Shown: positions 3,998 through 50,410, counted from the first letter of the stretch. The stretch: DNA of 64,000 nucleotides from Oscillospiraceae bacterium (GCA_009780435.1 WRAB01000011.1:1-64000), one strand, 5' to 3'. The notes: generated by a model from the letters alone, not told the origin. Made by a program: numbers and translations.

Positions 3998-4013
3998 CCC
4001 ACCCCCACACAAC

Positions 4014-4058
4014 AACCCCCGCCGCGTATCCCTCGGATATACGGCGGGGGTTCGTTTT
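4014..4058. terminator. Terminator between converging genes
   Basis: CCCCCGCCG and CGGCGGGGG arms form a strong hairpin followed by TTCGTTTTG on the plus strand. It sits between the converging surface-protein and PP-loop genes and probably serves both. Confidence 0.7.
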
Positions 4059-4062
4059 GCCC

Positions 4063-5190
4063 CTACATATCGTCATACGTATCCAAGAAGTGGTGCTGTT
4101 TCCCATCCTTTTTATAGGACACAATGGCCTCAATATGCACGTTTTCCACGCTGTTGAAAATATTGCTCTCCACGTATGGATTTGTCTCTTTGAGTGTGCG
4201 GATCAACTGCTTGATCTCTGTGCGCTTGGAGACCATGCCCCCGTCGGTGCTGCACGTATCCGTGAACCGGCAGGCGCACAGGAGGAAGCGGAGGTCGTGA
4301 TAGGTCTGAAAATGTTTGATATCTTTCTCCCGGATGAAATACATGGGGCGGATCAATTCCATGCCGGGGAAGTTTTGGCTGTGGAGTTTGGGCATCATGG
4401 TCTGGAATTGTGCGCCGTGGAGGACGCTCATCAAGATAGTCTCAATCACGTCGTCATAGTGGTGGCCCAGGGCGATTTTATTGCACCCAAGCTCCTGGGC
4501 TTTGCTGTATAGATGGCCCCGCCGCATCCTGGCGCAGAGATAGCAGGCGGATTTGGGGGCGGTAAACACGCTGTCGAAGATATCCGTCTCGAAGATGGTC
4601 AGAGGGATGTTTAAAATCTTGGCGTTGTGCTCAATTAAAGCCCGGTTCTCCGGGGCGTAGCCGGGATCCATGACCAGGAAGATCAGCTCAAAGGGGACTT
4701 TCCGGTGCCGTGTCAGCTCCTGGAACAGTTTTGCCATGAGCATGGAATCTTTCCCGCCGGAGATGCAGACTGCAATCCGATCCCCGGCCTGGATCAGGTC
4801 ATAGGTGCGGATTCCCTTGGTGAATTGGCTGAACAGGGTCTTGTGGAATTTCTTCCGGATACTCGTCTCGACGGCTTCCCACTTGTCCTGATGGGAGAGG
4901 TGCTCCAACAGCCACGCCACATATCCCCCGGCCAGATGACCGGCGGGGAGTCCCCGATCCGTCAGCCGTGCCGCCACGTCTGCGCTGACCAGGCCTTTTG
5001 TGCAATAGAGGATGATTTGCTTCTCTGTGGAGAGAACGTCTGCGTCTTGTTCCAGTGCATCAATCGGCACGTGGAGCGCGCCGGGGATGAAGCCGTTTTG
5101 GTAGGCGTGTTCGCTGCGGATGTCAATGAGGATATAGCTGTCGGGAGAGAGGGTCTGTAGGTCGACGAGGGAGAGTTCTCTTGGTCGCAA
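4063..5190 (-). CDS. Rhodanese-PP-loop ATPase fusion, TtcA-like tRNA thiolation protein
   Basis: Probably adds sulfur to a tRNA base. With a TTG start at 5190 the protein has 375 residues. The N-terminal ~95 are a rhodanese domain with catalytic Cys63 in the loop CTKGLVS. The rest is a PP-loop ATPase of the TtcA/TilS type with SGGKDS at 144-149, the pair CYLC and a late CACRF cysteine pair that could hold an iron-sulfur cluster. TtcA makes 2-thiocytidine in tRNA; the fused rhodanese would supply persulfide sulfur. The frame is open to TTG 5205, but that codon would lie only about 6 bases from the predicted transcription start, whereas TTG 5190 has GGAG 9 bases upstream. The exact target base is inference. 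Confidence 0.8.
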   Translation of the reverse strand: MRPRELSLVDLQTLSPDSYILIDIRSEHAYQNGFIPGALHVPIDALEQDADVLSTEKQIILYCTKGLVSADVAARLTDRGLPAGHLAGGYVAWLLEHLSHQDKWEAVETSIRKKFHKTLFSQFTKGIRTYDLIQAGDRIAVCISGGKDSMLMAKLFQELTRHRKVPFELIFLVMDPGYAPENRALIEHNAKILNIPLTIFETDIFDSVFTAPKSACYLCARMRRGHLYSKAQELGCNKIALGHHYDDVIETILMSVLHGAQFQTMMPKLHSQNFPGMELIRPMYFIREKDIKHFQTYHDLRFLLCACRFTDTCSTDGGMVSKRTEIKQLIRTLKETNPYVESNIFNSVENVHIEAIVSYKKDGKQHHFLDTYDDM

Positions 5191-5217
5191 TGGGATCAGC
5201 TCCAAATGTTTTCGAGT

Positions 5218-5246
5218 ATCATATCATTTGATGCATTTGTTTACAA
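5218..5246 (-). promoter_or_regulatory. Promoter of the PP-loop gene
   Basis: On the minus strand TTGTAA and TATGAT are separated by 17 bases, with the -10 about 27 bases before the chosen start codon. Confidence 0.6.
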
Positions 5247-5249
5247 GAG

Positions 5250-5284
5250 AAACCCCGCACCGATAGCGTTCCGATGCGGGGTTT
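5250..5284 (-). terminator. Terminator of the YjiH-like gene
   Basis: AAACCCCGCA and TGCGGGGTTT form a hairpin just past the stop codon of the YjiH-like gene. On the minus strand it is followed by a partly T-rich tract. Confidence 0.65.
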
Positions 5285-5306
5285 ATAGACATGTACCAGA
5301 TAGATT

Positions 5307-6716
5307 TTAAAATAGCAAATTAGCAAGCAGAACAATGATCGGCAGTGCAAGGATGGTTCTCATCATAAACAGGATGAAGAGTTTTCCAATATTTAGCGGC
5401 ATTTTGGACTTGATAATCAGAACGCCTGTTTCTACCAAGTAGATAATTTGTACGATGGAGAGAATACCGATGATAAATTTCGTTATCTCCGGCACGTCGC
5501 CTATCATGAGGGCAGGGAGGAACATGTCAATAAAGCCTAGCAAGGTAAGGGGCGCAACAGCCATCGCTTCTGGTACTTGAAGAAGTCTCAAGTATTGACC
5601 CATTGGCCATGAAATCCAATCGAAGATCGGGGTGAGCTCTGCAACCATGATTGCCAAGGTCCCCCAAGCGAGGATAACCGGGATTAGATCCATGAAAATG
5701 TTCAGATAGGTTTTTCCGGCGGCTCGGGCCACATCGCCCAAGCCTGATTTTTCCGCTCTTTGGCTGGCCAAAGCAAGAGCCTTGCTTGCAGGCACTTCTT
5801 CGTGGATTTGCTTGCCGACGCCTTCTAGATATGTATCAGGGAGACTGCGTAGCGGCCAGATGCGCGGGAGGATAAAGCCCAAGATAATGCAGGTGATACA
5901 CATGATGAGATAGAAGAGCAAGAAGCGTGTTCCGAGTCCAAGGCGGTGTGCAATAACAAAAGTAAAGGGCAGGGAAACGAATGAGAAGTTGACTGCAATA
6001 ACAGCAGCTTCACGCCCTGTGTAGAACCCTTTCTCATGCTGCGTGCGTGTGATGATGATGGAGACGGCTGAAGAGCCGAACCAAGATGCCATGAGGTCAA
6101 CGGATGCGCGTCCCGGAAGTGTGAATAGTACGCGTACCACTCTTCTGATCAGAACCCCGATGAACTCCATCAGACCAAAGTCAGTAACAAGTGGCATAAA
6201 GGGTACCAGAACAAGGAAGATGACTACCAGACCGGCAGTCAGACCGATCATAACATCCCCTGTGAAGGATGCGATGACGATATCAGGACCGATTCCCAGG
6301 AAAATCATCCAGATAAACACGAAACCGATTGCTTTACTGATGAAGTAGACCGGTGAGCTGAGGAAAGCGTTTCTTAGCGTTTCATTTTCCGTGATGAACT
6401 TCGGTTTGAAGATCCATGCGAGCACGGTTCCTAGAAATGAAATGGTAATAAAGATCAGTGCGAGCATGTATGCAATGGAGAAAACGCCCTCGTTCGCTCC
6501 GATTCCGTAATCAGCGAAAGAAACTGTAGCAAAAAGGTCTCCGAGCAAGTCAATGACCCAGCCGAGCACGATGTTGCGCGACCCGTCTTCGGTTGGGATG
6601 ACGGGCAACATGAACGCACCTATACCTATGAGAGAAAAGATAAGGAACTTTGCCGTGCCAACTGCACTTCTTTTTGGAACATCTTGGACATTGTTGCCGG
6701 GATCTGAATGATTCAT
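5307..6716 (-). CDS. YjiH-like nucleoside-recognition (GATE) domain membrane protein
   Basis: A 469-residue integral membrane protein with about ten hydrophobic segments. The opening FLIFSLIGIGAFMLPVIP and the later WFGSSAVSIIITRTQHEKGF fit the YjiH / nucleoside-recognition domain family, whose members resemble concentrative nucleoside transporters and spore maturation proteins SpmA/B. No substrate is established for the family. ATG 6716 is preceded by AGAAGGAGGATGTTTT, an excellent ribosome binding site. It is a single-gene unit with its own promoter and terminator. Confidence 0.75.
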   Translation of the reverse strand: MNHSDPGNNVQDVPKRSAVGTAKFLIFSLIGIGAFMLPVIPTEDGSRNIVLGWVIDLLGDLFATVSFADYGIGANEGVFSIAYMLALIFITISFLGTVLAWIFKPKFITENETLRNAFLSSPVYFISKAIGFVFIWMIFLGIGPDIVIASFTGDVMIGLTAGLVVIFLVLVPFMPLVTDFGLMEFIGVLIRRVVRVLFTLPGRASVDLMASWFGSSAVSIIITRTQHEKGFYTGREAAVIAVNFSFVSLPFTFVIAHRLGLGTRFLLFYLIMCITCIILGFILPRIWPLRSLPDTYLEGVGKQIHEEVPASKALALASQRAEKSGLGDVARAAGKTYLNIFMDLIPVILAWGTLAIMVAELTPIFDWISWPMGQYLRLLQVPEAMAVAPLTLLGFIDMFLPALMIGDVPEITKFIIGILSIVQIIYLVETGVLIIKSKMPLNIGKLFILFMMRTILALPIIVLLANLLF

Positions 6717-6756
6717 AAAACATCCTCCTTCTTATAAATACAGGTACACTTTGAGT

Positions 6757-6784
6757 ATTATACCAAAAATCGATGAAAAAGCAA
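6757..6784 (-). promoter_or_regulatory. Promoter of the YjiH-like gene
   Basis: On the minus strand TTGCTT and a perfect TATAAT are separated by 16 bases, about 40 bases before the start codon. Confidence 0.6.
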
Positions 6785-7003
6785 GGAGTTTTTGAATTTT
6801 TATTCATTCTTATGCATTTCAACAAAAAAGAAACGGGAATCAAAAACTGGGCTGTGAACCATTCCCATTCCATAGCCCGGTTTATGCAAACAGGAGTATT
6901 TAACCGCTCCTTGGCGCTCTTTATCAAACAGGTATCACAATGATATCGGACATTTTTTACTATTTCACCAAAAAATATGATCCAGCATTGGCGATTTCAA
7001 CAA

Positions 7004-7032
7004 TTGACCAGAGAGAAGAAAGGGTGTATCCT
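7004..7032 (+). promoter_or_regulatory. Promoter of the sugar ABC / GH3 operon
   Basis: TTGACC and TATCCT with a 17-base spacer. The predicted transcription start, near 7039, falls inside the inverted repeat 7035-7080. Confidence 0.6.
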
Positions 7033-7034
7033 TA

Positions 7035-7080
7035 ATCACAAGTAGGGTTTGTTAATCTTGTTCACTAACCTACTTGTGAT
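7035..7080 (+). promoter_or_regulatory. Inverted repeat at transcription start: operator or leader hairpin
   Basis: ATCACAAGTAGG and CCTACTTGTGAT are perfect complements 22 bases apart, and the similarity continues inward (GTTTGTTAA against TTAGTGAA). The element begins at the predicted transcription start of the sugar operon. It could be a repressor operator, perhaps for the ROK regulator at 13.9-15.1 kb, or a 5' hairpin in the mRNA. Confidence 0.55.
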
Positions 7081-7123
7081 CGTATAAGACCACAAAAAAC
7101 AGAAATACGAGGAGGTACAAAAC

Positions 7124-8539
7124 ATGAAAAAGATTCTTTGCCTATTCCTGGTTGTTGTCTTGGTGCTCGCACCTCTTGCCGGCTGCGGTAACAACAACGA
7201 AACACCTGAGGCCCCGGTAGATCAAGGTGCCGCCACGCCCGCACCTGCGCCAGATCCCGATCCGGATCCCGAGCCGGCGGGCGACGGGGGAGTCATCAAC
7301 GTCTGGGCGTTCACGACGGAGATTCCCGATGCCCTTCAGCACTTTATCGACTCAAACCCGGATTTCCCCTACACGATCAATGTAACAGTGATCAGCGACC
7401 AAGACGGTGAGTACGAAGCGGCACTCAACACGGCACTTCTCGCCGGCGGTAGCGCTGCCCCGGACATCTTTACGGCAGAACAGGCATTCGTTGTCAACTA
7501 CACGCAACACGAGTTCTCCAGCTTTGCACTTCCCTATGAAGAGTTGTTTGGTGAGCCTGTACAGCCTCTCGTCGATGCTGCGGGCGTTGCGGCTTTCATC
7601 CAAGAGGCGGGCACGAACCCGGCAGGGGAGCTTGTAGGCCTCGGCTTCCAATCCACCGGTAGCGCCTTTATCTATCGGCGGGATCTGGCAGAGCAAATCT
7701 GGGGCACAGACGATCCGGATGCCGTTGGCGGCCATATCGGCCCGGGCTGGAATAGGTTCCTCGAAGCTGCCGCCCAGGCTGAGGCCGAGGGCATAGCGAT
7801 CCTCTCCGGTGAGGGCGATGCATGGCAGGCCATCCGCCAGTCCCCGAATCCCTGGGTTGTAAATGACACTCTCGTCATTGATGACCAGCGCATGTCATAT
7901 CTCGATATCGGCTATCAACTCTTTAATAACAACTTCACCAACAAGACCAATGCGTGGGGTTCCCAATGGTTTGCCGATATGAGAGGCGAAGTGGAAGAGG
8001 ATACAGAAGGTCCGGTGCGTCCCGTCCTGGGCTATCTCGGCCCCGCTTGGCTCATTAACTACGTCATAGCCGGAAATTCCGGCGACACATTCGGCAACTG
8101 GGCAATCACCACTCCGCCCACGCCGTTTGCATGGGGCGGCACATGGACAATGGCCAATGCCAACGGCAATCCTGATGTCCGTGACGGTGTTGCAACACTC
8201 ATCAGATGGCTCACCCTCGACACCACAGATACCGGATTCCAGTTCCTGTTTGCTAACCAGCTCTTGCCGGGCGCTTCTGCGAAAGATGCCGTTGCGTCAA
8301 GCGTGGTTATGGAACGGTCTGACGGAACCTTGGACTTCCTCGCAGGGCAGGATATGTTTGATATCTTCATTCCGGCAGGCGTTCACGGGAGAGCTTCCGG
8401 CTGGGGTCCGTACGACAGATTCATTGATGACCAGTTTAATAACTTTGCAGAACAATACTTCATGGGCGAGATGACTCGTGAGGAAGCGCTTGACGGGTTC
8501 AGACAAGCCATTCAAGACACCTTGGGCATTGGTTCCTAG
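7124..8539 (+). CDS. ABC sugar transporter, substrate-binding lipoprotein
   Basis: Captures an oligosaccharide outside the cell for ABC import. The 471-residue protein has a lipoprotein signal: MKKILCLFLVVVLVLAPLAG followed by the lipobox Cys at residue 21. A Pro/Asp/Glu-rich linker (about 25-50) follows, then a family 1 extracellular solute-binding fold. It is the first gene of an operon with two MalF/MalG-type permeases and a GH3 glycosidase, so a xylo-oligosaccharide or related beta-linked sugar is a reasonable inference. GGAGGT lies 8 bases before ATG 7124. No ATPase gene is in the operon; as is common in Firmicutes, a shared MsmX-like ATPase elsewhere would power it. Confidence 0.9.
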   Translation: MKKILCLFLVVVLVLAPLAGCGNNNETPEAPVDQGAATPAPAPDPDPDPEPAGDGGVINVWAFTTEIPDALQHFIDSNPDFPYTINVTVISDQDGEYEAALNTALLAGGSAAPDIFTAEQAFVVNYTQHEFSSFALPYEELFGEPVQPLVDAAGVAAFIQEAGTNPAGELVGLGFQSTGSAFIYRRDLAEQIWGTDDPDAVGGHIGPGWNRFLEAAAQAEAEGIAILSGEGDAWQAIRQSPNPWVVNDTLVIDDQRMSYLDIGYQLFNNNFTNKTNAWGSQWFADMRGEVEEDTEGPVRPVLGYLGPAWLINYVIAGNSGDTFGNWAITTPPTPFAWGGTWTMANANGNPDVRDGVATLIRWLTLDTTDTGFQFLFANQLLPGASAKDAVASSVVMERSDGTLDFLAGQDMFDIFIPAGVHGRASGWGPYDRFIDDQFNNFAEQYFMGEMTREEALDGFRQAIQDTLGIGS

Positions 8540-8554
8540 ATTCAGTCTGTAAAA

Positions 8555-8594
8555 GTACAGTCAGGGCGGCGGATATCCGTCGCCCTGATTGTAC
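8555..8594 (+). other. Intercistronic stem-loop between binding protein and permease genes
   Basis: GTACAGTCAGGGCGGCGGAT pairs with ATCCGTCGCCCTGATTGTAC almost perfectly, but no T-run follows. Such hairpins after binding-protein genes typically protect the upstream mRNA and lower expression of the permeases relative to the binding protein. Confidence 0.7.
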
Positions 8595-8618
8595 ATCTCT
8601 ATGTTAGGGGGGATATAA

Positions 8619-9614
8619 ATGAGAAAACGCCATAAGGGTGTGAATTATGCCAAGTACGGATACATATTCTCTATCCCATTCGTCCTGGGCTTTTTAGTGT
8701 TCACGCTCTATCCGCTGGGATATACGGCAGTGCTGGCATTTACGGATTTTTCCGGCGCCGCCTCACTCATTTCGGGTGAGATGAATATTCTGGATGACCC
8801 GTTTGAGAACTTCAGTATGCTACTGTTTGACAATCAGCTGTTTTGGACATCCATTACCAATACATTCAGGATTTGGCTCACGAACTTCATTCCGCAGATC
8901 GTTTTGGCGCTTCTTTTGACCGCATGGTTTACAAACAACAGAAACAAGATCAGAGGCCAGGGGCTGTTCAAGGTGTTGTTTTATATGCCGAATATTATCA
9001 CGGCTGGGTCCATTGCCGTTTTATTTGGCGCTTTTTTTGCCTTCCCATTGGGGCCTGCAAACCATATTCTATCGCTCCTCGGCGTAGAAAATCATCCGTT
9101 TAACTTCACCGCATCTCCGGCGGCCTCACAGAATATTATCGCATTTATACAATTTTGGATGTGGTACGGATACACAATGCTCATTCTCATCGCAGGTGTT
9201 TTGGGGATTAATCCAGAATTATACGAAGTTGCGGAAATCGACGGTGCAAACGGCATTCAGAAGTTTTTCTTCGTAACGCTCCCAAATTTGAAGACAGTCC
9301 TCCTGTTTACTGTCGTCACCAGTATTGTCGGCGGTATTACCATGTTTGATATACCCTGGCTGTTCAATCAGGGCGGCCCCGTCAACTCGACGACGACGGT
9401 GTCACTGTTCATTTACAATCTCGCATTTACCGGCAGACTGCGATATAACGTTGCGGCGGCGGCGAGCATACTTGTATTTCTAATGATAGCCGCACTGTCC
9501 GTTGCCGTGTTTTATCTGCTCCGGGATAAAGATGCAGCACAGCTTAAGAAAGAGGAGCGAGCCCTGCGGCGTGCGCTCAAGGCAGAAATGAAGGGGGTGC
9601 AGGGCAATGGATAA
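8619..9614 (+). CDS. ABC sugar transporter permease, MalF type
   Basis: One of two membrane subunits of the sugar importer. The 331-residue protein starts in the cytoplasm (MRKRHKGVNYAKYGYIFSIP), has six or seven membrane segments, and carries the binding-protein-dependent transport (EAA) loop ELYEVAEIDGANGIQKFFFV, which contacts the ATPase. The start is preceded by TTAGGGGGGATATAA. It overlaps the next permease by 8 bases, so the two are translationally coupled. The C-terminus (about 305-331) is highly charged and cytoplasmic. Confidence 0.9.
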   Translation: MRKRHKGVNYAKYGYIFSIPFVLGFLVFTLYPLGYTAVLAFTDFSGAASLISGEMNILDDPFENFSMLLFDNQLFWTSITNTFRIWLTNFIPQIVLALLLTAWFTNNRNKIRGQGLFKVLFYMPNIITAGSIAVLFGAFFAFPLGPANHILSLLGVENHPFNFTASPAASQNIIAFIQFWMWYGYTMLILIAGVLGINPELYEVAEIDGANGIQKFFFVTLPNLKTVLLFTVVTSIVGGITMFDIPWLFNQGGPVNSTTTVSLFIYNLAFTGRLRYNVAAAASILVFLMIAALSVAVFYLLRDKDAAQLKKEERALRRALKAEMKGVQGNG

Positions 9615-40117: not shown

Positions 40118-40918
40118 ATGAATTATTGTATTGCGTATACCGTGCTTTGCAACACAGGGCTGGTTCGGACAAAAAATCAAGACAATTTTTGGTGTATGGG
40201 CGAATTTCTAAAAAGCGAAAATGATGGGGTGGCAGACCCCATTACTGGGACAGCGGACACAAAGCGTATACCGGCCTTTGCCGTTTTTGATGGGATGGGC
40301 GGGGAACAGCAGGGCGAGGTCGCCGCATACATCGCCGCCAACACGTTTGATGTCGGATATAAAGAGAGTCCCAAACGTGACGTCAAGCAATTTCTGTTAG
40401 ATGCCTGTGCCAATATGAACAACGCGATTTGTGTGCACATAAAAGAGCAGCATCTCCGCAGTTCAGGCGCGACTGCTGCGATACTTATGTTTGGCAAACG
40501 GGATATTTATGTCTGCAATATTGGGGACAGCCGAATCTATCAGTTCAGTGATGATACGTTGACGCAAATATCCCACGATCACAGTGAGACCGGCATGATA
40601 GACAGGAAGCCGCCGCTCACACAGCATTTGGGGATCCCCGAGACGGAGTTTGTCATTGCGCCGTATGTGGCAAAGGGATTGTATGAAAAGGGAGATAAAT
40701 ATCTGATTTGCTCCGATGGGTTGACGGATATGGTCTCCGAAGCGGAAATCGCCAAAACAATGACGGAGAACAGCAGTATTGAACAAGGCGCCGAGGTGCT
40801 TTTGCAAAAAGCCCTGGAAGCGGGCGGCCACGACAACATCACATTGATACTGTGCGAAATTCGCAGGCAAGGACTCCAGATATTCAATAAAAATATTGTA
40901 GGGGGCGCGTCAAAATGA
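40118..40918 (+). CDS. PP2C-family Ser/Thr protein phosphatase
   Basis: Removes phosphate from Ser/Thr, presumably reversing the two kinases that follow. The 266-residue protein has the full set of PP2C metal motifs: RTKNQDNF, FAVFDGMGGEQQGEVAA, NIGDSRIYQF, LICSDGLTDMV and AGGHDNITLI. It is similar to Stp/PrpC phosphatases of Firmicutes, usually about 245 residues, with a short insertion after NFWCMGEF. The start overlaps a modest ribosome site GAGCGGGACAAA. It overlaps the first kinase gene by 4 bases. Confidence 0.92.
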   Translation: MNYCIAYTVLCNTGLVRTKNQDNFWCMGEFLKSENDGVADPITGTADTKRIPAFAVFDGMGGEQQGEVAAYIAANTFDVGYKESPKRDVKQFLLDACANMNNAICVHIKEQHLRSSGATAAILMFGKRDIYVCNIGDSRIYQFSDDTLTQISHDHSETGMIDRKPPLTQHLGIPETEFVIAPYVAKGLYEKGDKYLICSDGLTDMVSEAEIAKTMTENSSIEQGAEVLLQKALEAGGHDNITLILCEIRRQGLQIFNKNIVGGASK

Positions 40919-43275
40919 GCATTGAAAAATTAAGTAACATCTGGCCGGATTGGCAGGTGGTTGAACAACTGGGGGAAGGGTCCTTCGGCAAAGTTTACAA
41001 GGTTTTGCGAGAGGAACACGGTGTGACCTCCACCGCGGCCGTAAAAGTCATTTCCATCCCCCAAAATGATGCGGAACTGGCCTCCATACGCGCAGAGGGG
41101 ATGGACGAGACGGGAACCCGCTCCTATTTTGAAGGTATTGTGACAGATTTCGTGGGCGAAATCAAGTTGCTGGAATCGATGAAGGGGACCGCCAACGTCG
41201 TCAGCGTAGAGGACTATAAGGTGCTGGAGAAAACCGACAAGATCGGCTGGGATATCTTCATCCGCATGGAGCTTCTGACCCCGCTCAACGACTATATTGC
41301 CGGTAGAGCGCTGACAGAGGCGGAGGTTATCAAGCTGGGGCAGGATATTTGTTCCGCATTGGAACTATGTGCCCAGCGGGACATTATGCACCGGGATGTC
41401 AAGCCGGAAAATATCTTCGTCTCCTCCTTCGGCGACTTTAAACTCGGAGATTTTGGGATTGCCCGCAAACTGGAAAAAAGCAACGACTCCTTGTCACGCA
41501 AGGGTACGCCGAACTATATGGCGCCGGAAATCGACATGTCTAAGGAGTACGATGCCACGGTGGACATATACTCCCTGGGGCTGGTACTCTACAAATTGCT
41601 CAATAACAATCGGTTGCCGTTTTTGGATCCGAATGCCCAATTGATACAGTATCAAGACCGCAAAGACGCGCTGAATCGCCGTTTTGACGGGGAGCCACTG
41701 CCCGCGCCGATCAATGCGAGTCCCCACTTGGCACAAGTAATTCTGGTCGCCTGTGCCTTTCGGCCCGCAGAGCGGTTCCAATCGCCGACGGCGTTTAAAA
41801 ATGCGCTGGGGGCAGTTCTGGGAGCGGCACCGGCCCCGATTCCTCCAAAGCCTGTTCCTCCACCGGCTCCGCAGAAGCCTGCTGACGCGGCGAGTGATAT
41901 GGACAAAACCATGACGGGACGCCGTCCGCCGGAAGCTAGGCAGCCAGTTGCACAGGAGCCGGATGTGCCTATTGCCTCTTTCGGCAGAGAGAAGAAAAAG
42001 AAGTCCAAAGCGAAGGGCGTCCTAATTGCGCTTCTTGTGCTTATTGTCCTCGGCGGCGCGGCAGTTGGCGCATACATTTTGAATCCGGGCGGCATTTTTG
42101 ATGGTGTACACGATGTTGTCGGCGGCATCATTGGCGACCCGGCGGCGGACGTCATCACCGCCCTGGAAGAGGGGAACCATGCAGAGGCCTTGTCTCTGGC
42201 AGAGGAGGCGGATGGCGACGCGCTACAGAGAAGACTGGAAGAGCGCCTAGATACGCTGGAGGCCGATTTCAGGGCCGAGAATGTAGCGTTTGCCGCGGTG
42301 ACAATGGAACTGGACACCATTGGAAGGATGAACGTATCCGGACTTTCCAGCGCTTTGACCGCGACGCGGAGTTCAATCAACAATCTCAACGCCTCCCGGA
42401 CGGCGTTCAATACGGCGGAGACGTTGTTTGAAAGCGGCGATTATGCCGCGGCCATTACCCAATACAGGCTGGTCATTCAAGACGACCCTAATTTTGAACG
42501 TGCGTTAGCAGGCGTAAATAATGCCACAAGCGAATACCGCTACAGGGTGTTGTCCGATGCGAATGAATATGCGAGCAGACATGATTATGAGAGCACCATT
42601 AGAGTCTTAGACAACGGACTACGGGTAATTGAGAACGACTCGACACTAATGGAAGTGCGCATCCTAAATGAGCAGAGGTTCATAGCTGCTACGATCTCCC
42701 AAGCCGACACGCTTGTCGCTGAGGGTAGACATGACGATGCTATCGCGCTAATCAATGGCGCATTGCAAACGGTTCCTGGTGATGACCAGCTAACGAGCCG
42801 GCGAGATGAAGCGACAGCGGCAAGACCTGTGGGCTTATCGACTGTTGTTGTGGTTGATTCAAGTGCTTACAGCCACAGTGAAGATATTTTTACAGACTCC
42901 TTTGGAAACCATCATCACGAATCATTCCAGTTTACCCCGCGAGCTAACGGGTGGAGAAATCGCTATGAATATAGTGATTCTGGAAATTCTTCATATGCTG
43001 TTTATAATTTGAACGGCAACTTCAGAACTTTTACCGCTGATATTGTTGCTCCTAGCGGTCTCCATTCGGATGTAGAATTTCTGATCGAAATTACCTTTGA
43101 AGACAATCGCACTCCCATAACTTTTGTTGAAGGATATACTGTGCGCACAGGAACGCGTCGCATAGAGGTAGATGTTTCCGATGTTACGACAATGACTATT
43201 ACAGTCAGAGTAAGAGGTGGTTCGTCTACTTTGCAACATAGTATTCGTTTGGTAAATGCTGAATTGGCCAGATAA
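40915..43275 (+). CDS. Membrane Ser/Thr protein kinase 1 with TPR-like outer region
   Basis: A 786-residue receptor kinase. The kinase domain (about 13-300) has GEGSFG, Lys44 (AAVKVI), HRD at 159-161, DFG at 179-181 and YMAPE, so it should be active. A Pro-rich linker leads to a membrane segment at about 367-388. Outside are helical repeats at about 400-620 (FNTAETLFESGDYAAAITQY resembles TPR) and a C-terminal beta-rich domain at about 640-786 of unknown type. GGGGGCGCGTCAAA precedes ATG 40915. There are no PASTA repeats, unlike PrkC. It is paralogous to the next kinase. Confidence 0.9.
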   Translation: MSIEKLSNIWPDWQVVEQLGEGSFGKVYKVLREEHGVTSTAAVKVISIPQNDAELASIRAEGMDETGTRSYFEGIVTDFVGEIKLLESMKGTANVVSVEDYKVLEKTDKIGWDIFIRMELLTPLNDYIAGRALTEAEVIKLGQDICSALELCAQRDIMHRDVKPENIFVSSFGDFKLGDFGIARKLEKSNDSLSRKGTPNYMAPEIDMSKEYDATVDIYSLGLVLYKLLNNNRLPFLDPNAQLIQYQDRKDALNRRFDGEPLPAPINASPHLAQVILVACAFRPAERFQSPTAFKNALGAVLGAAPAPIPPKPVPPPAPQKPADAASDMDKTMTGRRPPEARQPVAQEPDVPIASFGREKKKKSKAKGVLIALLVLIVLGGAAVGAYILNPGGIFDGVHDVVGGIIGDPAADVITALEEGNHAEALSLAEEADGDALQRRLEERLDTLEADFRAENVAFAAVTMELDTIGRMNVSGLSSALTATRSSINNLNASRTAFNTAETLFESGDYAAAITQYRLVIQDDPNFERALAGVNNATSEYRYRVLSDANEYASRHDYESTIRVLDNGLRVIENDSTLMEVRILNEQRFIAATISQADTLVAEGRHDDAIALINGALQTVPGDDQLTSRRDEATAARPVGLSTVVVVDSSAYSHSEDIFTDSFGNHHHESFQFTPRANGWRNRYEYSDSGNSSYAVYNLNGNFRTFTADIVAPSGLHSDVEFLIEITFEDNRTPITFVEGYTVRTGTRRIEVDVSDVTTMTITVRVRGGSSTLQHSIRLVNAELAR

Positions 43276-43317
43276 TCAAGAATAAACAAGAGTAGAAGCA
43301 TTGTAAGGGGGATGGAG

Positions 43318-45444
43318 ATGAGCATTGAGCGACTGGGCGCCATCTGGCCGGAGTGGCAGGTTGTGGAGCAACTGGGCGAAGGGTCTTTCGGCAAAGTCTA
43401 CAAGGTGGTGCGGGAGGACCACGGCGTGACCTCCACCGCCGCCGTAAAAGTCATCTCCATCCCCCAAAACGACGCGGAACTGACCTCTATGCGGGCGGAA
43501 CGACTGGACGAGACGGGGATGCGCTCCTACTTTGGCGGCATTGTCGCAGATTTCGTCAATGAGATCCAGATGATGGAATCTATGAAGGGGAACTCTTATA
43601 TCGTCAGCGTTGAAGATTACAAGGTGTTGGAGAAAACTGATAAAATCGGCTGGGATATCTTCATCCGCATGGAGCTTCTGACCCCCCTCAACGACTATAT
43701 TGCCGACAGGGAACTGACGGAGGCGGAAGTAGTCAAGCTGGGACAGGATATTTGCGCGGCGTTGGAGTTGTGTGACCAGCGGAAAATTATCCACAGAGAC
43801 ATCAAACCGGAGAATATTTTTATATCTGCGCACAAGAACTTCAAGGTGGGTGATTTTGGGGTCGCCCGGGAGCTGGGAAAGACCAGCGGCTCTCTGTCCC
43901 AAAAGGGCACATATAACTACATGGCACCGGAAATCACCACGTCTACGCGATATGATGCCACAGTGGATATATACTCCCTGGGGCTGGTGCTCTACAAACT
44001 GCTCAATAATGATCGGCTGCCGTTTCTGGATCCGAAGGCCCAGTTGATACAGTATCAGGATCGCAAAAATGCCATTGATCGCCGGTTGAGCGGAGAGGCA
44101 CTGCCTGCGCCGATCAATGCGAATCCGCAGTTGGCGCAAGTGATTCTGACCGCCTGTGCGTTTCACCCCGCCGCGCGATTCCAATCGCCGACGGCGTTCA
44201 AAAATGCGCTGGGCGCGGTTCTGGGAGCGGCGCCGATCCCTGGGCCGCCGGATGATATGGACAAAACAACGTCGGTGCGCCGCGCACCCCCCGCACCCCC
44301 CGCGCCGCCGCAACCACCGCCTCCACCATCGCCACCGCCGCCACCTCCACCGTCCGGTGGAGGCAGGAAAGTCGGTGTGATTGCCCTGGTGATCCTGGTG
44401 ATTCTGGCGATTGGCGCTTATGGCATATGGTACAATGATCCCTTCGGCTTCTTTGATTCATCGGAGCACACGGTGGTGTTTTATCTAAATGATGGAACGA
44501 GTACAGTGTTTGGTGCGCCTGTCACTGTAGAAGAGGGGGACACCGTAGCGCTCCCGTTCTATACGCCCCACCGGGCGGGCTATACATTTCTCTACTGGAC
44601 GAGAGACCGCGCCGGCAACTACCGCTATAACTTTGACACACGCGTGACGGAGGATACCTCTCTCTATGCCCAATGGGGCGAAGTCGTCCCTGTATATGAT
44701 GGACCTGCTATAGTAGATGAGACATATGATGAAATGCTTGCACCGGAATATACAGATACGCCACCGGAACTCAGCCACTTCGTGGCGTTTGATATGGGGG
44801 CGATTGATGGAATTATATCGCAGCGGGCGAGTCCTTCGGATGTGGCGGTCTCCATTCTTGATTTAAACACAATGGAGATGCATGTAACCGCAAACGGCAA
44901 TACGCCTTTTGTCGCCAGCGGGTTTTACGCCCCTCTATACAACATTGTTCTCTCGCACAGTAGCGCGCGTCAGACGGCGGATACAATGATGGCGACAATG
45001 GATAATGCCGCCGCAAATGCGCTGATTGAAGGAATAGGCGGATTTGCGCAAGTAAATGGGATACTAAGTAATTTGGGATTTGCAGAGACGCGCTTCGGGC
45101 GCAATTTCGGTGATGTTGAGGCGAGCAGAAGGGGACATGAGAACTATACCACAGCGCGGGAGGCGGCTTGGATACTGGGTGAGTTGTATGAGAACGGCGG
45201 CTATTTGAAGATGAGTTTCGATTTGACGCGAGATGGCGTTATTTTGCCGGGCGGGATTGTCGTCTATGCACATAGGGGAGCGGGGATTGGCGCCGCATAT
45301 AACGTGTTTGCCGTTATTGTCACGCCATCCGTCAACTATGTCGTTGTGGTTTTGACGAGTGGGCTGGGAAGCGACAGTGCCGCGCCTATTGTATCAGAGC
45401 TTTTGGCGAATATCCAACAGCAGATGGAGCAGATACATGGGTAA
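43318..45444 (+). CDS. Membrane Ser/Thr protein kinase 2 with degenerate beta-lactamase-like sensor
   Basis: A 708-residue receptor kinase. The kinase domain is nearly that of kinase 1 (four differences in the first 30 residues), with HRD at 159-161 and DFG at 179-181. A run of prolines precedes a membrane segment at about 352-372. Outside are an InlB/Flg_new-type repeat (about 384-453, RAGYTFLYWTRDRAG) and a class A beta-lactamase-like domain (about 480-708). Compared with the next gene product, that domain keeps the motif Ser but has Tyr for the Lys of SxxK, MDN for SDN and HRG for KTG, so it is probably a non-catalytic ligand sensor. ATG 43318 has AAGGGG 7 bases upstream; ATG 43312 is too close. 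Confidence 0.9.
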   Translation: MSIERLGAIWPEWQVVEQLGEGSFGKVYKVVREDHGVTSTAAVKVISIPQNDAELTSMRAERLDETGMRSYFGGIVADFVNEIQMMESMKGNSYIVSVEDYKVLEKTDKIGWDIFIRMELLTPLNDYIADRELTEAEVVKLGQDICAALELCDQRKIIHRDIKPENIFISAHKNFKVGDFGVARELGKTSGSLSQKGTYNYMAPEITTSTRYDATVDIYSLGLVLYKLLNNDRLPFLDPKAQLIQYQDRKNAIDRRLSGEALPAPINANPQLAQVILTACAFHPAARFQSPTAFKNALGAVLGAAPIPGPPDDMDKTTSVRRAPPAPPAPPQPPPPPSPPPPPPPSGGGRKVGVIALVILVILAIGAYGIWYNDPFGFFDSSEHTVVFYLNDGTSTVFGAPVTVEEGDTVALPFYTPHRAGYTFLYWTRDRAGNYRYNFDTRVTEDTSLYAQWGEVVPVYDGPAIVDETYDEMLAPEYTDTPPELSHFVAFDMGAIDGIISQRASPSDVAVSILDLNTMEMHVTANGNTPFVASGFYAPLYNIVLSHSSARQTADTMMATMDNAAANALIEGIGGFAQVNGILSNLGFAETRFGRNFGDVEASRRGHENYTTAREAAWILGELYENGGYLKMSFDLTRDGVILPGGIVVYAHRGAGIGAAYNVFAVIVTPSVNYVVVVLTSGLGSDSAAPIVSELLANIQQQMEQIHG

Positions 45445-46363
45445 GAAACTTGTGTGGATCGGATTGTTTTTTGTCATTGTGGGTCTCACTGCGCTACTGA
45501 CTGCATGTCAAACTCCCGTCTCCGCGGTGGTTGAGCAGACACCTAAAGTGACGCCGGTTGCGCCTGAACTTTCCCCGGTGCCGCCCGCGACACCGATCCC
45601 CGAACCGACACCGAGGCCGACCCCCGAACCGGCGGAAGCAACGGCGAGGGAAAATCCCTTTACGGAAGAACCCCTGCGCCTACATGCACAAGATGTGTAT
45701 TACAGCATCTATTATTTTTCAGAGGGTGCACGGTACACCAATGGGGACTCCCCCAAGATGCCGGCGGCAAGTGTCATCAAAGTGTTTATCATGCAATACG
45801 CCTATTCGCGCATAGAGCAGGGGGAACTGTCCGAGGATGATATCATAGGGGGGCAGAATGTCCGCAGATTGATTGAAGGGATGATTCAGCAAAGCGACAA
45901 CACCGCGACAAATATATTGATTGACTATTTTGGTATGGAGGCGTTGAATCAGTTCTTTTTGCGCCAAGGGTTTACAGAGACAGTGCTACAGCGGAGAATG
46001 TTGGATCACGAGGCCAGGCGCCAAGGGCTTGACAACTACACGTCCACGAGAGATGCAATGGCATTTCTACAGCGTCTGTATCACAACCGCCCGATATATC
46101 CATATAGTGAAATGCTTGCAATCATGGAAGGGCAAGCGGTGCGGACGAAAATTCCCTTACTTCTTCCGACCGATACAGTTGTGGCAAATAAGACCGGAGA
46201 GCTACATGATGTTGAGAACGATATCGGGTTGGTATTTATGGAAGACACGGCCTTTGCAATTGTAGTGCTGACAGACGGCGTAACAAACGGCGGGGCGGTA
46301 CGGCAGGCAATCGGCCAGTTGGCGCGACAAGCGTATGAGTATAATAGAGGAGAATTCAGATGA
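45437..46363 (+). CDS. Class A beta-lactamase-like serine hydrolase lipoprotein
   Basis: A 308-residue lipoprotein: hydrophobic start then lipobox LLTACQ, a Pro/Thr/Glu linker, and a class A beta-lactamase fold. All catalytic motifs are present: Ser112 and Lys115 in AASVIKV, SDN at 153-155, KTG at 252-254. Such proteins may be beta-lactamases or enzymes acting on peptidoglycan peptides. ATG 45437 overlaps the kinase 2 stop by 8 bases. Its fold matches the degenerate sensor domain of kinase 2, suggesting the sensor arose from it. The frame opens at 45359, but the signal peptide sets the start. Confidence 0.88.
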   Translation: MGKKLVWIGLFFVIVGLTALLTACQTPVSAVVEQTPKVTPVAPELSPVPPATPIPEPTPRPTPEPAEATARENPFTEEPLRLHAQDVYYSIYYFSEGARYTNGDSPKMPAASVIKVFIMQYAYSRIEQGELSEDDIIGGQNVRRLIEGMIQQSDNTATNILIDYFGMEALNQFFLRQGFTETVLQRRMLDHEARRQGLDNYTSTRDAMAFLQRLYHNRPIYPYSEMLAIMEGQAVRTKIPLLLPTDTVVANKTGELHDVENDIGLVFMEDTAFAIVVLTDGVTNGGAVRQAIGQLARQAYEYNRGEFR

Positions 46364-46830
46364 AAATTGTAGGTTGGATATTAACCATTATAGGGAGCAA
46401 CGGTTTAACCGGTACGTTGGTCGCGAAAAACAGCATTCGATATAGTGTGGATCATCTGGCGGAACATATTTTAGAAATCATTGAGAGCCTCGTTGCGGAA
46501 ATCGTTGGGACTGAGCAAGGCCTCATCGCCTCGTTAGTGGGGATGTTGATGGATGCTTTTACGGACAACCTTGCGGAGGGCCTTGTGGGAATACTGGGGG
46601 TTGATCAAGGGTTTGTACGAATGGTAGATACGTTGTTTTACCTCTCAATCGGCGTGTTGATTATTGGCCTAGTCGTCCTGGCGATCGGGTATATCAAGGG
46701 CGCAAAAGCGCAATGGCAGTCAACCCAGCAGGCCGTATACCCTGAATCCGGTGACCAGACAGGACACACGGAGTACGAGACACCCAGTTCATGGAAATTT
46801 TGCCCCCACTGCGGACAAAAGGTGGAATAA
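46360..46830 (+). CDS. Membrane protein with C-terminal zinc-ribbon half
   Basis: A 156-residue protein. A hydrophobic N-terminus (KIVGWILTIIGSNGLTGTLV) is followed by an amphipathic region, a second membrane segment at about 92-112 (YLSIGVLIIGLVVLAIGYI), and a polar tail ending FCPHCGQKVE, a single CxxC that could pair with another ribbon. Not recognised. ATG 46360 overlaps the previous stop by 4 bases, so it is coupled to the hydrolase gene, and the next gene starts 2 bases after its stop. Confidence 0.6.
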   Translation: MKIVGWILTIIGSNGLTGTLVAKNSIRYSVDHLAEHILEIIESLVAEIVGTEQGLIASLVGMLMDAFTDNLAEGLVGILGVDQGFVRMVDTLFYLSIGVLIIGLVVLAIGYIKGAKAQWQSTQQAVYPESGDQTGHTEYETPSSWKFCPHCGQKVE

Positions 46831-46832
46831 GT

Positions 46833-49166
46833 ATGAGCCGGGATATCTTTGATCAAACAACATATTACCGGCAGCCGGAGGAAACGCATTCCGCCGGCTC
46901 TGTCCGCGTAACGATTTTTGACGGGATAGCCGAGCCGGTGGAGTTGGATTTGGCCGACTTTGGAAAAGCGGTCATCACCTTTGGGCGGGAAGTGGGCAAC
47001 GATATTCAGCTTCGCTCCCACTACGTTTCCCGTAGACACGGTCAGATTCGGCTGGTCAACGGGCAATGTATGATCGAAGATTTGGACAGCCGCAACGGGC
47101 TTATCTTCAATGGAGAATCCATCCGTAGCCGGATTGTAGAAGATGGGGATTCTATTCGTATTGACGACGGTGTGGAGACTACCGCCCAAGGTGTACTGAT
47201 GGTGTTTTCCCGCCATGATGGCGAATCCGACTGGCGGACATTTCGCCTTGCAAATCACATGGAGACGACCATCGGGCGGGACAAGGGCTGTGATATTGTC
47301 CTCGACCATGTGAGCGTCTCCAAAATCCACGGAAAAATCATCGCGAGGGGCAACGCATATTATCTTGTTGATCACAACAGCACCAACGGCATTGTTGTAA
47401 ACGGGAAAAAGGTTGAGGGCAAGGTTCAGCTGCACGAAAAAGATGTCATCCTCATCACCAACTCGAAGCTGATTTTCGGCGGCGGTAAACTCTCCTATTG
47501 CTGTTTCAAAAAGGGCATCAGTGTGGATGCGTCGCACTTGGTCAAAAAGGTGGATAGAAATCGCAAGACCATCTGCAACGACGTCAGTTTGCGTGTCAAC
47601 CCTTGCGAACTGGTGGCGATTGTCGGCGGATCTGGTGCGGGGAAATCTACGGTGATGAACTGTATCAGCGGATACAGTCTGCCGACGGAGGGGCGCGTAG
47701 CGGTCAACGGCGTTGATCTCTACGAAAACTATGACGCGCTGAAAAACATCATCGGTTATGTGCCGCAGCAGGACATCGTGTTTGACAACCTTACCGTTGC
47801 AGACATGTTGGGCTATGCCGCTGAACTGCGGCTGCCAAAAGACTTTACGGAACAAGAGCGGCGAGACGTGGTTACCCGCGTAATCGACAGCGTGGAATTG
47901 ACCGCTCACAGAGAAAAAATGATCAAAAATCTGAGCGGCGGACAGAAGAAGCGGGCCAGTATCGCGGTAGAGCTCCTGTCCGACCCAAATCTGTTCTTTT
48001 TAGATGAACCGGCCTCCGGCCTTGATCCCGGCACAGAGCGCAATTTAATGGCAACGCTGAAGGCGATGGCGGTAAGCGGGAAAACCGTAATATTTGTCAC
48101 CCACAGCACGTTGAACCTGGGTGTGTGCGATAAAATTGTGTTTATGGGAGCGGGCGGTAACCTATGCTTTTACGGGACCCATGACGAGGCGCTACAGTTC
48201 TTTGGGGTTGCAGACATCGTAGACGTGTACAATCTCATGACAAATAATCCGCAAGTTTATAAAGATAAGTATTTGAGAGAACAAAAGAATACGGATCGCC
48301 ATGCCGGGCAAAAATCTTCTGCGATGCCGAAGCAGTCTACGGGACACGGCTGGGCGCAGCAAGTGGCGGTGCTGTGCAAGCGCCATCTGCACATCATGCG
48401 CAATGACCGCATTCGTCTGTTGCTGATTTTGCTACAGGCGCCGCTTCTGGGCGCGTTGATTGCGCTTGTGGCGGACGGAGAGCAGTTTGTACAATTTGAG
48501 ATTACCAGAAGTTTATTGTTCGCCATGGCCTGCTCCGCTTTTTGGATTGGGATTCTCAATTCGATTCAAGAGATCTGTAAGGAGCGGAATATCCTCAAGC
48601 GGGAGTATATGACCGGCCTGCGGCTGGATTCATACATATCTTCGAAGATTTTTGTGATGGGTCTAGTCTGTGCCGTGCAGGCATTTCTGCTGACCACGGT
48701 ATTCGTGTTGTTGGTCGGACAGCCGGATCAGGGCGTGATGTTTGGGGCGTATCTGGAACTCTTGCTCACGACCTTTTTGACGGCGCTGGGGGCATCCGCA
48801 ATGGGACTTTTTGTCTCTTCTCTGTTCAAAAATGCCGACAGAGCCATGACCGTTGCACCGCTTCTGCTCATGCCGCAACTCCTGTTCTCCGGCATGATTT
48901 TTCAGTTGGAGGGCGCATCTGAACTTATTTCGTGGTTCACGGTCTGTCGGTTTACCATGCAGGCATATGGCACGACGGCGGATTTAAACAGTCTGCCGAC
49001 GAGATTGGAGCAACAGGGGATTCCCATAGAGCGCGAAGCGGAGAGCTTCTTTACATTTTCCTGGACAAACTTTACGTTCTCGTTGCTCATGCTGTGCGTA
49101 TTTGTCGTGGTGTTTTCGATTTTAGCCGGATACGTATTGCGGAGCATCAAGAGAGAGCGAAATTAG
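46833..49166 (+). CDS. FHA-FHA-ABC-ABC2 exporter, Rv1747-like
   Basis: A 777-residue half-transporter. Two FHA domains that bind phosphothreonine come first: about 45-115 (FGREVGNDI...SRRHGQ...SRNGLIFNG) and about 130-215 (IGRDKGCDI...SKIHGK...STNGIVVNG). Then an ABC ATPase with Walker A at 265 (GGSGAGKST), signature at 367 (LSGGQKKR) and Walker B at about 386-392, and an ABC-2 membrane domain with six segments (about 520-777). This order matches mycobacterial Rv1747, a transporter whose FHA domains bind a threonine-phosphorylated site set by the neighbouring kinase PknF. ATG 46833 has GGTGG upstream. Export substrate unknown. Confidence 0.92.
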   Translation: MSRDIFDQTTYYRQPEETHSAGSVRVTIFDGIAEPVELDLADFGKAVITFGREVGNDIQLRSHYVSRRHGQIRLVNGQCMIEDLDSRNGLIFNGESIRSRIVEDGDSIRIDDGVETTAQGVLMVFSRHDGESDWRTFRLANHMETTIGRDKGCDIVLDHVSVSKIHGKIIARGNAYYLVDHNSTNGIVVNGKKVEGKVQLHEKDVILITNSKLIFGGGKLSYCCFKKGISVDASHLVKKVDRNRKTICNDVSLRVNPCELVAIVGGSGAGKSTVMNCISGYSLPTEGRVAVNGVDLYENYDALKNIIGYVPQQDIVFDNLTVADMLGYAAELRLPKDFTEQERRDVVTRVIDSVELTAHREKMIKNLSGGQKKRASIAVELLSDPNLFFLDEPASGLDPGTERNLMATLKAMAVSGKTVIFVTHSTLNLGVCDKIVFMGAGGNLCFYGTHDEALQFFGVADIVDVYNLMTNNPQVYKDKYLREQKNTDRHAGQKSSAMPKQSTGHGWAQQVAVLCKRHLHIMRNDRIRLLLILLQAPLLGALIALVADGEQFVQFEITRSLLFAMACSAFWIGILNSIQEICKERNILKREYMTGLRLDSYISSKIFVMGLVCAVQAFLLTTVFVLLVGQPDQGVMFGAYLELLLTTFLTALGASAMGLFVSSLFKNADRAMTVAPLLLMPQLLFSGMIFQLEGASELISWFTVCRFTMQAYGTTADLNSLPTRLEQQGIPIEREAESFFTFSWTNFTFSLLMLCVFVVVFSILAGYVLRSIKRERN

Positions 49167-49180
49167 GTTGGAGGGCGAAC

Positions 49181-50410
49181 ATGGGGCAGGAGAAGCTGGA
49201 CTTTCAGGCGATTGATCAGTTTAGTCAGACCGTGATTAACTCGCTGGACTTTACAAAGCGCTCGGAAGACCTATTTTATGATACCGTTGATTTGGCGGAA
49301 TTTCAGGATAAAGATGCAGAGACGATTTTCAATTGTCTGAAAAACGAAATCCGCCTGATCCCCTTTGGCGATTATCTGAAACGATATATTTACTTGAAAA
49401 CGGGGATGGCGGGGGATTACTGCGCCGTCGATGTGCGGGAATATCAGCACATTATTGTGGATTCTTTCGCTGAAAACAATACGCCGAAGTCATTTTCCGA
49501 AACCACGGCTAAAATGAGCGCACTTTCAAAAAATTGGTTGACACAGGTGACGGTGAACCGTTCTGTCATATTTCTGCTGGGGTTCGGGCTCAACATGAGC
49601 GCAGAAGATGTTTCCAGGTTCTTGACCAAAGCACTGTGTGAGCGAGATTTTAATTTCAAAGACCCGGTGGAGATCATCTATTGGTATTGCTTTAAAAATG
49701 GCTATAAATTTTCTAAAATGCTTGCGCTGAGACGGCAATATGAAGCGTTAGCGCCTACCTTTGGCTACGCCGTTTATGGGGATAGGACAGTCGGGGTGCG
49801 TGATACCATCAAAGGCGTCAAAGACGACGAAGCGCTGTTGCGGTATCTGGCGGGGTTCAAGCAGGGCAATCTCACAGGTTCAGCCGGTATGACCGCAGGG
49901 CAATGGTTTTCTGATTTGTATCTAAAATGCAAAGGTCTGATTGCCGATTTTTACAATGCAGACGAGCTGGAACGGCGCGCAAACAAGACATGGAGTCCGG
50001 CGGACATTACCGAGGGAGATGTCGAAAAAGTGCTGTGTTGCGGGACGCCGGTCAATCACAGCGGCAACTTGGAGAGGCTATCTGCCTCGAAACTTTCCAA
50101 ATATTTTAGTGGCAAACGGTTTAGCAGACAGCATATCGCGGCCCTTCTGTCAAAATCGGTTGCGGTTGATCGCTTTGATTTGATGACCCTCAACTTCTTT
50201 CTTTTTTCACAAAATGAAGCATACGCCCACGACAGGAAGAACCGGTATATCGCGTTTGTTGACAGCACGAATGAGATGTTAGAAGCGTGTATGATGGGTG
50301 AGTTGTATATTGCGAATCCATTTGAGTGTTTTTTGCTGATGTGTATCCTATCAGACTGCCCCCTGGCGACCTATGCCGATGTCTGGGAGATGTCTTTTGA
50401 TGGGGCGTAA
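49181..50410 (+). CDS. Unrecognised 409-residue protein ending the kinase cluster
   Basis: A soluble, mostly helical protein with no signal peptide or membrane segment and no family I recognise. It opens GQEKLDFQAIDQFSQTVINS, contains WLTQVTVNRSVIFLLGFGLN and a Trp/Tyr/Cys-rich middle (EIIYWYCFKNGYKF), and ends LATYADVWEMSFDGA. GGAGG lies 7 bases before ATG 49181, 14 bases after the exporter stop; the frame extends far upstream into the exporter gene but those codons are a shadow. Position suggests a regulator, adaptor or substrate of the kinase-exporter system. Confidence 0.7.
   Translation: MGQEKLDFQAIDQFSQTVINSLDFTKRSEDLFYDTVDLAEFQDKDAETIFNCLKNEIRLIPFGDYLKRYIYLKTGMAGDYCAVDVREYQHIIVDSFAENNTPKSFSETTAKMSALSKNWLTQVTVNRSVIFLLGFGLNMSAEDVSRFLTKALCERDFNFKDPVEIIYWYCFKNGYKFSKMLALRRQYEALAPTFGYAVYGDRTVGVRDTIKGVKDDEALLRYLAGFKQGNLTGSAGMTAGQWFSDLYLKCKGLIADFYNADELERRANKTWSPADITEGDVEKVLCCGTPVNHSGNLERLSASKLSKYFSGKRFSRQHIAALLSKSVAVDRFDLMTLNFFLFSQNEAYAHDRKNRYIAFVDSTNEMLEACMMGELYIANPFECFLLMCILSDCPLATYADVWEMSFDGA

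Follow-up and report, generated by a model that had tools for sequence, protein, structure and literature searches.

A receptor Ser/Thr kinase with a degenerate Beta-lactamase2 ectodomain, encoded next to an intact PBP-A-like counterpart in an Oscillospiraceae bacterium

A receptor Ser/Thr kinase, kinase 2, carries at its outer end a Beta-lactamase2 domain that has lost all three catalytic motifs, and the gene that follows encodes a lipoprotein in which these motifs are intact. Both genes lie in a 64,000-nucleotide stretch of DNA from an Oscillospiraceae bacterium (GCA_009780435.1, WRAB01000011.1:1-64000), a Clostridia genome of gut type; the whole stretch is called the window here. Dead/live gene pairs of this kind recur in other genomes, the dead domains form a single clade, dead and live members have diverged in a correlated manner, and in the window the inner part of the dead protein has been swapped for a kinase. 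A sequence-only reading of the window had proposed a receptor kinase with a dead penicillin-recognising fold beside its intact counterpart; the Pfam assignments and the motif loss bear this out.

Work on how receptor kinases sense the state of the cell wall, a long-standing question, has mostly dealt with PASTA repeats. In kinase 2 the part that reads the wall seems to be a dead form of a stem-peptide-cutting enzyme, and it is paired with a live form. At least 13 other genomes carry such a dead/live pair with different inner domains, and this points to a little-noticed route of wall sensing. The pair offers a natural comparison of live and dead forms in which ligand and mechanism can be tested directly. 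It is also a clean case of pseudoenzyme evolution, in which a single dead clade and its live partner lineage have stayed together in several families of one bacterial class.

Kinase 2 and the neighbouring genes

The features of the cluster are given in Table 1. Residue numbers of kinase 2 are counted from an alternative ATG at 43312, which gives a protein of 710 aa; the start at 43318 gives 708 aa and reads MSIERL, the same as kinase 1. The frame is intact from either start.

Table 1. Features of the kinase 2 cluster; coordinates are counted from the first nucleotide of the window
Feature	Coordinates	Strand	Description and evidence
PP2C phosphatase, first gene of cluster	40118..40918	+	Pfam 4e-15; NCBIfam Stp1/IreP 2.7e-44, below cut-off
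Kinase 1, paralogue of kinase 2	40915..43275	+	TPR and NPCBM-like outer part
Kinase 2 ORF	43318..45444	+	Receptor Ser/Thr kinase with dead Beta-lactamase2 ectodomain; Pfam, translation, start context
Kinase domain of kinase 2	43357..44196	+	Residues 16-295; active-type; Pfam
TM helix of kinase 2	44371..44433	+	Residues 354-374; sequence
Flg_new (Listeria-Bacteroides) repeat of kinase 2	44467..44673	+	Residues 386-454; Pfam E=4.8e-13
Dead Beta-lactamase2/PBP-A-type domain of kinase 2	44800..45441	+	Residues 497-710; Pfam, tree, profile comparison
ASGFYAPLY at SxxK position, kinase 2	44914..44940	+	Alignment
MDNAAAN replacing SDN, kinase 2	44998..45018	+	MDN is residues 563-565
YAHRGAG replacing KTG, kinase 2	45265..45285	+	HRG is residues 654-656
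Live partner, PBP-A-like lipoprotein	45437..46363	+	308 aa; lipobox LTAC; ASVIK 45767-45781, SDN 45893, NKTG 46187
Small membrane protein	46360..46830	+	C-terminal zinc ribbon; weak Pfam Zn_Ribbon_1 match, 0.0055
Double FHA fused to ABC-2 transporter	46833..49166	+	Pfam FHA 1.3e-32, ABC_tran 6.7e-30
Conserved last gene of cluster	48956..50410	+	True start unsure

Kinase 2 has the fold of a Hanks-type Ser/Thr kinase (Pkinase, E=1e-42 in Pfam) with the glycine loop GEGSFGKV, the VAIK-type lysine (AAVKVI), HRDIKPEN (HRD..N) and GDFG (DFG). There is one TM helix in all, with a proline-rich stretch just before it. The outer domain belongs to Beta-lactamase2 (PF13354; E=3.6e-15, 56.3 bits against a curated cut-off of 22 bits). 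In direct BLASTP it aligns with the product of the next gene, as had been claimed, at 30% over 149 aa (E=8e-14). Both ORFs are intact as placed, and they overlap by 8 nt.

The class A beta-lactamase triad (Ser70xxLys73, SDN, KTG) is absent from kinase 2. SDN has become MDN and KTG has become HRG, exactly as the sequence-only reading had it. The third change that it described, SxxK to SxxY, stands as a loss of the motif, and the exact SxxY depends on the register of the alignment. A gap-free register anchored on the first strand and on K-x-P places Ser536-Gly-Phe-Tyr539 at this position, and most automatic alignments set Phe or Gly opposite the serine and Pro or a gap opposite the lysine (Phe-Tyr-Ala-Pro). 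Lys633, in YLKM and outside all three motifs, is the only lysine among residues 481-710 (230 aa), so the loss of the SxxK and KTG lysines is certain under any alignment.

The ectodomain is assigned to the penicillin-recognising type of fold from sequence profiles, the AlphaFold model of the domain, built from four alignment rows, being too weak as structural proof (mean pLDDT 47.7, pTM 0.43). The Foldseek matches of this weak model are, among those listed, class A beta-lactamases or fusions containing one, with a TM of ~0.35. An unrelated fold, or homologues that keep the catalytic residues, had been named as observations that would count against a dead penicillin-recognising domain. Profile comparison ties the dead domains to class A/PBP-A folds: the subfamily dead-1 matches an independent live alignment with 98.2% probability (E=4e-14), and it matches the subfamily dead-2 over the full length with 98.6% (E=6e-16). 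Relatives of the dead domain were found to lack the catalytic residues as well.

The neighbour, in agreement with the earlier claim, keeps SVIK, SDN and KTG and thus the full triad. Calling the pair beta-lactamase-like is right at the level of the family, of which the neighbour is a clear member (PF13354; E=2.4e-43, 148.4 bits against the Pfam cut-off of 22 bits), and less apt for the enzyme itself. Its omega loop has no ExxLN motif in the alignment and so no glutamate of the Glu166 type found in class A beta-lactamases, and it scores 71.3 bits against the NCBIfam class A model NF033103, for which the cut-off is 200. Compared with solved structures, the family profile matches PBP-A of Thermosynechococcus best (7e-48). 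For the neighbour, a model of moderate quality (pLDDT 60, pTM 0.62) gave PBP-A chains in all of the ten top Foldseek positions; in single-sequence comparison 4ewf and 4hes rank slightly above PBP-A. With the triad kept, an omega loop without the glutamate, and profile and fold both nearest to PBP-A, the neighbour appears better described as PBP-A-like than as a beta-lactamase, with a predicted DD-peptidase activity. PBP-A is a DD-carboxypeptidase/endopeptidase specific for amidated muropeptides (PMC11189452).

The genes of the cluster are probably co-transcribed, because adjacent genes, all on the same strand, overlap or almost touch. The FHA-ABC protein likely reads phosphothreonine. The last gene, which has no match in Pfam, NCBIfam or PADLOC, is an uncharacterised partner of Ser/Thr kinase signalling; it is kept at the end of kinase/PP2C/FHA clusters in many Clostridia, including Blautia (phmmer down to 2e-147). 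A role of the cluster in anti-phage defence was considered and rejected: the PADLOC matches of the kinases are generic kinase similarity, and the live partner and the last gene have no match.

Recurrence and descent of the dead/live pair

Searches at the level of family, order and class, followed by reading of the loci, gave 14 tandem pairs including that of the window. Gene A of each pair encodes a cytosolic part, a TM helix and a degenerate domain; the product of gene B is an intact enzyme. By a motif test for SxxK, SxN and KTG, the triad is missing in A (14/14) and full in B (14/14), figures that describe tandem pairs of the dead/live type since the pairs were chosen for being tandem. The window pair has the form of such a cassette, a TM-anchored dead domain adjoining a live partner, the two falling in matching dead and live clades.

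In 12 pairs the inner part of gene A consists of one to three zinc ribbons; in the window it is the kinase, and at locus L210 it is a degenerate kinase-like part (Pkinase 0.0011 in Pfam, with HRD and DFG not readable). The live domain of L210 is fused to a part that is PP2C-like by a weak phmmer match only (2.8e-6), which Pfam does not confirm. The kinase-like/dead protein and the PP2C-like/live protein adjoin each other there (5111-9135), and at L211 an N-terminal part similar to the PP2C-like part of L210 was recognised by eye. A second active-type kinase with a dead domain is found at L212 as a lone fusion (Pkinase 2.5e-37, Beta-lactamase2 3e-14). Three kinases stand in a row at this locus (573-5932), and the one of 705 aa has an N-terminal zinc ribbon-like stretch in addition to the dead Beta-lactamase2 ectodomain.

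Dead domains without a live partner were seen only at L084 and L212 in the loci read. In most Clostridia that have the live enzyme no dead partner was recognised, which means that elsewhere this enzyme operates on its own. Tandem live/live Beta-lactamase2 genes also occur (L044, a congener); tandem arrangement alone therefore does not imply a dead/live pair. A pattern search of the genome contigs returned no close relatives of the kinase 2 outer domain, and viral contigs gave nothing useful. When the whole ectodomain was searched against 150 genomes of the family, most matches were to Flg_new repeats.

A maximum-likelihood tree was built from 47 domains. All 16 dead domains, that of kinase 2 included, form one clade (97/97), and the motif loss, being common to this clade, is not chance drift in one protein. 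The dead domain of kinase 2 is thus a member of an old dead lineage that is accompanied by live partners. It clusters with the five dead domains of L202-L206 (100/99), and the neighbour clusters with the partners of exactly these loci (100/100). The groupings of L063/L083/L064 and of L207-L209 likewise match between dead and live parts, and the pairwise distances of dead and live domains are correlated (Mantel r=0.885, p=5e-5), a correlation that could partly reflect vertical descent. The window pair comes from family f1, and in both trees it joins pairs of families f35 and f43 and not the f1 pairs L063, L064 and L083 (genomes G165, G166 and G572). This grouping across families points to cassettes inherited as units, and not only along with the species. 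An origin of the dead domain as a recent duplicate of the neighbour was also considered and is ruled out by the tree, in which the domain falls in the old dead clade and not in that of the neighbour.

Where SxxK stood, the dead-1 subfamily has an invariant G-F-Y-x-P-x-Y. Half of its invariant columns (12/24) are found no more than 7 positions away from the three lost motifs (p=7e-4, for a span picked post hoc). The invariant motif and the position of these columns suggest that the pocket region is probably kept for binding.

The kinase part of kinase 2 is 81% identical to the kinase domain of kinase 1, as compared with 78% to its nearest outside relative, L123 from the Oscillospiraceae MAG Co191P1bin82, and the two kinases of the window are sisters in the tree with moderate support (94/85). 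The cluster of L123 has the PP2C, kinase 1, FHA-ABC and last genes, with kinase 2 and its partner missing from the interval. None of the three congeners searched has the insert either, which may mean that the kinase version is recent and of narrow distribution. Kinase identity and the gene content of L123 argue for an insertion in which a duplicated kinase was joined to a dead domain and arrived with the live partner. In the kinase subfamily (~100 members, 79 named loci) the outer parts are TPR/NPCBM-like, PASTA-like, leucine-rich-like, Flg_new and others, assigned partly by eye, and the dead domain is present in none of them except kinase 2; the kinase subfamily itself is thus not the carrier. 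The genomes with these pairs are assigned to the Clostridia through those relatives of the kinase that have names. The kinase 2 sequence comes from a 40-contig draft genome, and some of the relatives' genomes are draft MAGs.

Candidate function and comparison with known systems

That kinase 2 and the product of the next gene form a two-part envelope sensor is the favoured reading and, in our estimate, an evenly balanced proposition, for which we infer the pairing, the ligand and the signalling. The live partner would sit on the outside of the membrane as a PBP-A-like serine acyl-enzyme of the DD-peptidase type. Its dead relative, the ectodomain of kinase 2, has lost the chemistry and probably retained the pocket region, and would bind either the live partner or a similar ligand (the ends of stem peptides or muropeptides). 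The live enzyme may make, remove or compete for the ligand, or its acylation state may be what gets read. The kinase, PP2C and FHA-ABC proteins would pass the signal inward, with PP2C as the off switch. Most relatives have a zinc ribbon inside, swapped here for a duplicated copy of the adjoining kinase. The sequence-only reading had taken the dead domain for a sensor of wall peptides or beta-lactams; such sensing, of muropeptides or of beta-lactams, is conjectural, and acylation as in BlaR1/MecR1 is impossible for a dead domain. A wider proposal is more tentative: the Clostridia would have a recurrent two-gene sensor whose inner modules (zinc ribbon, Ser/Thr kinase, kinase-like, PP2C-like) are swapped between lineages, and in which the stem-peptide reaction of the live enzyme sets the signal read by the dead receptor.

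Strict gene pairing and correlated divergence suit protein contact as well as a shared ligand, and dead/live heteromers are a common fate of pseudoenzymes. The dead domain might be a docking subunit with no ligand of its own, which tethers the live lipoprotein or controls it allosterically, maybe inside-out; the usual inner part, a zinc ribbon and thus no known signalling enzyme, would fit such a role. We find this rather unlikely, as the invariant residues of dead-1 cluster at the former active site and not over the surface, which is weak evidence for use of the pocket, and as a kinase for the inner part suggests outside-in signalling. New catalysis by the dead domain through other residues, for example the Tyr of GFYxP or the retained Asn and Gly, would agree with the conservation of the replacement motif in dead-1. 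The replacement residues differ between the subfamilies, however (GFYxP in dead-1, SxLVxxP in dead-2), so there is no common new catalytic set, and this explanation is very improbable. It is hardly credible that kinase 2 is without function, either as a chimera created in assembly or because its outer domain is a decaying copy of the neighbour. The exact fusion was found in one genome only, the 40-contig draft, but the frame is open, the kinase motifs are intact, the 8-nt overlap with the partner is in place, the domain sits in the old clade (100/99) outside that of the neighbour, the partner is equally orthologous (100/100), and L212 provides a second kinase-dead fusion.

The sensor proposed for kinase 2 shares with BlaR1 and MecR1 a penicillin-recognising outer domain on a membrane signalling protein. 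The BlaR1/MecR1 sensor is acylated through a live serine. It binds beta-lactams, and the output is a metalloprotease (PMC6925264). Kinase 2, in contrast, has no acylation residues (no SxxK) and no protease domain, and its output is a kinase. With this precedent (PMC6925264) and a penicillin-recognising fold on a receptor, the pair might be taken for a beta-lactam sensor or resistance device, in which the live enzyme or the dead domain detects the drug and the kinase induces resistance. Such a counterpart of BlaR1/MecR1 is improbable: the dead domain has lost the nucleophile-lysine pair that acylation requires; the live enzyme, without the deacylating glutamate loop and with PBP-A as its best match, should be inhibited and not hydrolyse the drug; and Pfam and NCBIfam revealed no resistance gene or regulator in the cluster. 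VbrK of Vibrio parahaemolyticus, a sensor kinase connected with beta-lactams in the literature, is a histidine kinase and is not known to have a penicillin-binding fold.

PASTA kinases (PrkC, StkP, PknB, Stk1) are, like kinase 2, membrane Ser/Thr kinases with PP2C and FHA genes nearby and an outer part thought to read wall material. Kinase 2 differs from them, as had been noted, in having no PASTA repeats and a dead enzyme fold in their place. It scores 130.6 bits against the PrkC/PknB model NF033483, for which the cut-off is 450, and the same genome has a separate PrkC-type kinase with three PASTA repeats (L061). PBP-A of Thermosynechococcus elongatus (TLL2115; PDB 2j7v, 2j8y) resembles the neighbour in its triad, in an omega loop without the catalytic Glu, in profile and in fold. 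Neither a dead partner nor a signalling protein has been described for it, and kinase 2, unlike PBP-A, has lost the entire triad. A protein of clavulanic acid synthesis uses a class A-like domain outside resistance; there the domain is fused to an isomerase/cyclase-like domain, and neither receptor nor pair is described. The part of the literature that was covered contained no instance of a dead beta-lactamase fold on a kinase or on a zinc-ribbon protein, and in the accessible portion of a 2005 survey of bacterial kinase architectures beta-lactamase appears only as a substrate of Pkn2.

Other arrangements of Beta-lactamase2 genes

In Blautia and relatives, a live Beta-lactamase2 gene is convergent to the end of a cluster of kinase, PP2C and unknown genes (eight loci). 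At L188 (4959-9411) a 1067-aa kinase with a large unidentified ectodomain is followed directly by a live Beta-lactamase2 gene. In a congener, two Flg_new repeats occur in one protein together with a Beta-lactamase2 domain in which SxxK is intact (L043, 6166-7416); the Flg_new of this protein is the best match to that of kinase 2, at 45%.

Motif loss was also seen in other settings. A PP2C-like protein at L213 (2950-4581) has a Beta-lactamase2 domain that has lost SxxK (DRLID) and KTG (RSG), yet it falls among the live domains in the tree; its motif loss appears to be independent of the dead clade. A 1486-aa cell-wall hydrolase-like protein at L221 (3930-8387) combines an SGNH-like part with a Beta-lactamase2 domain without SxxK and KTG (ANFIDLF, GNKVGRE).
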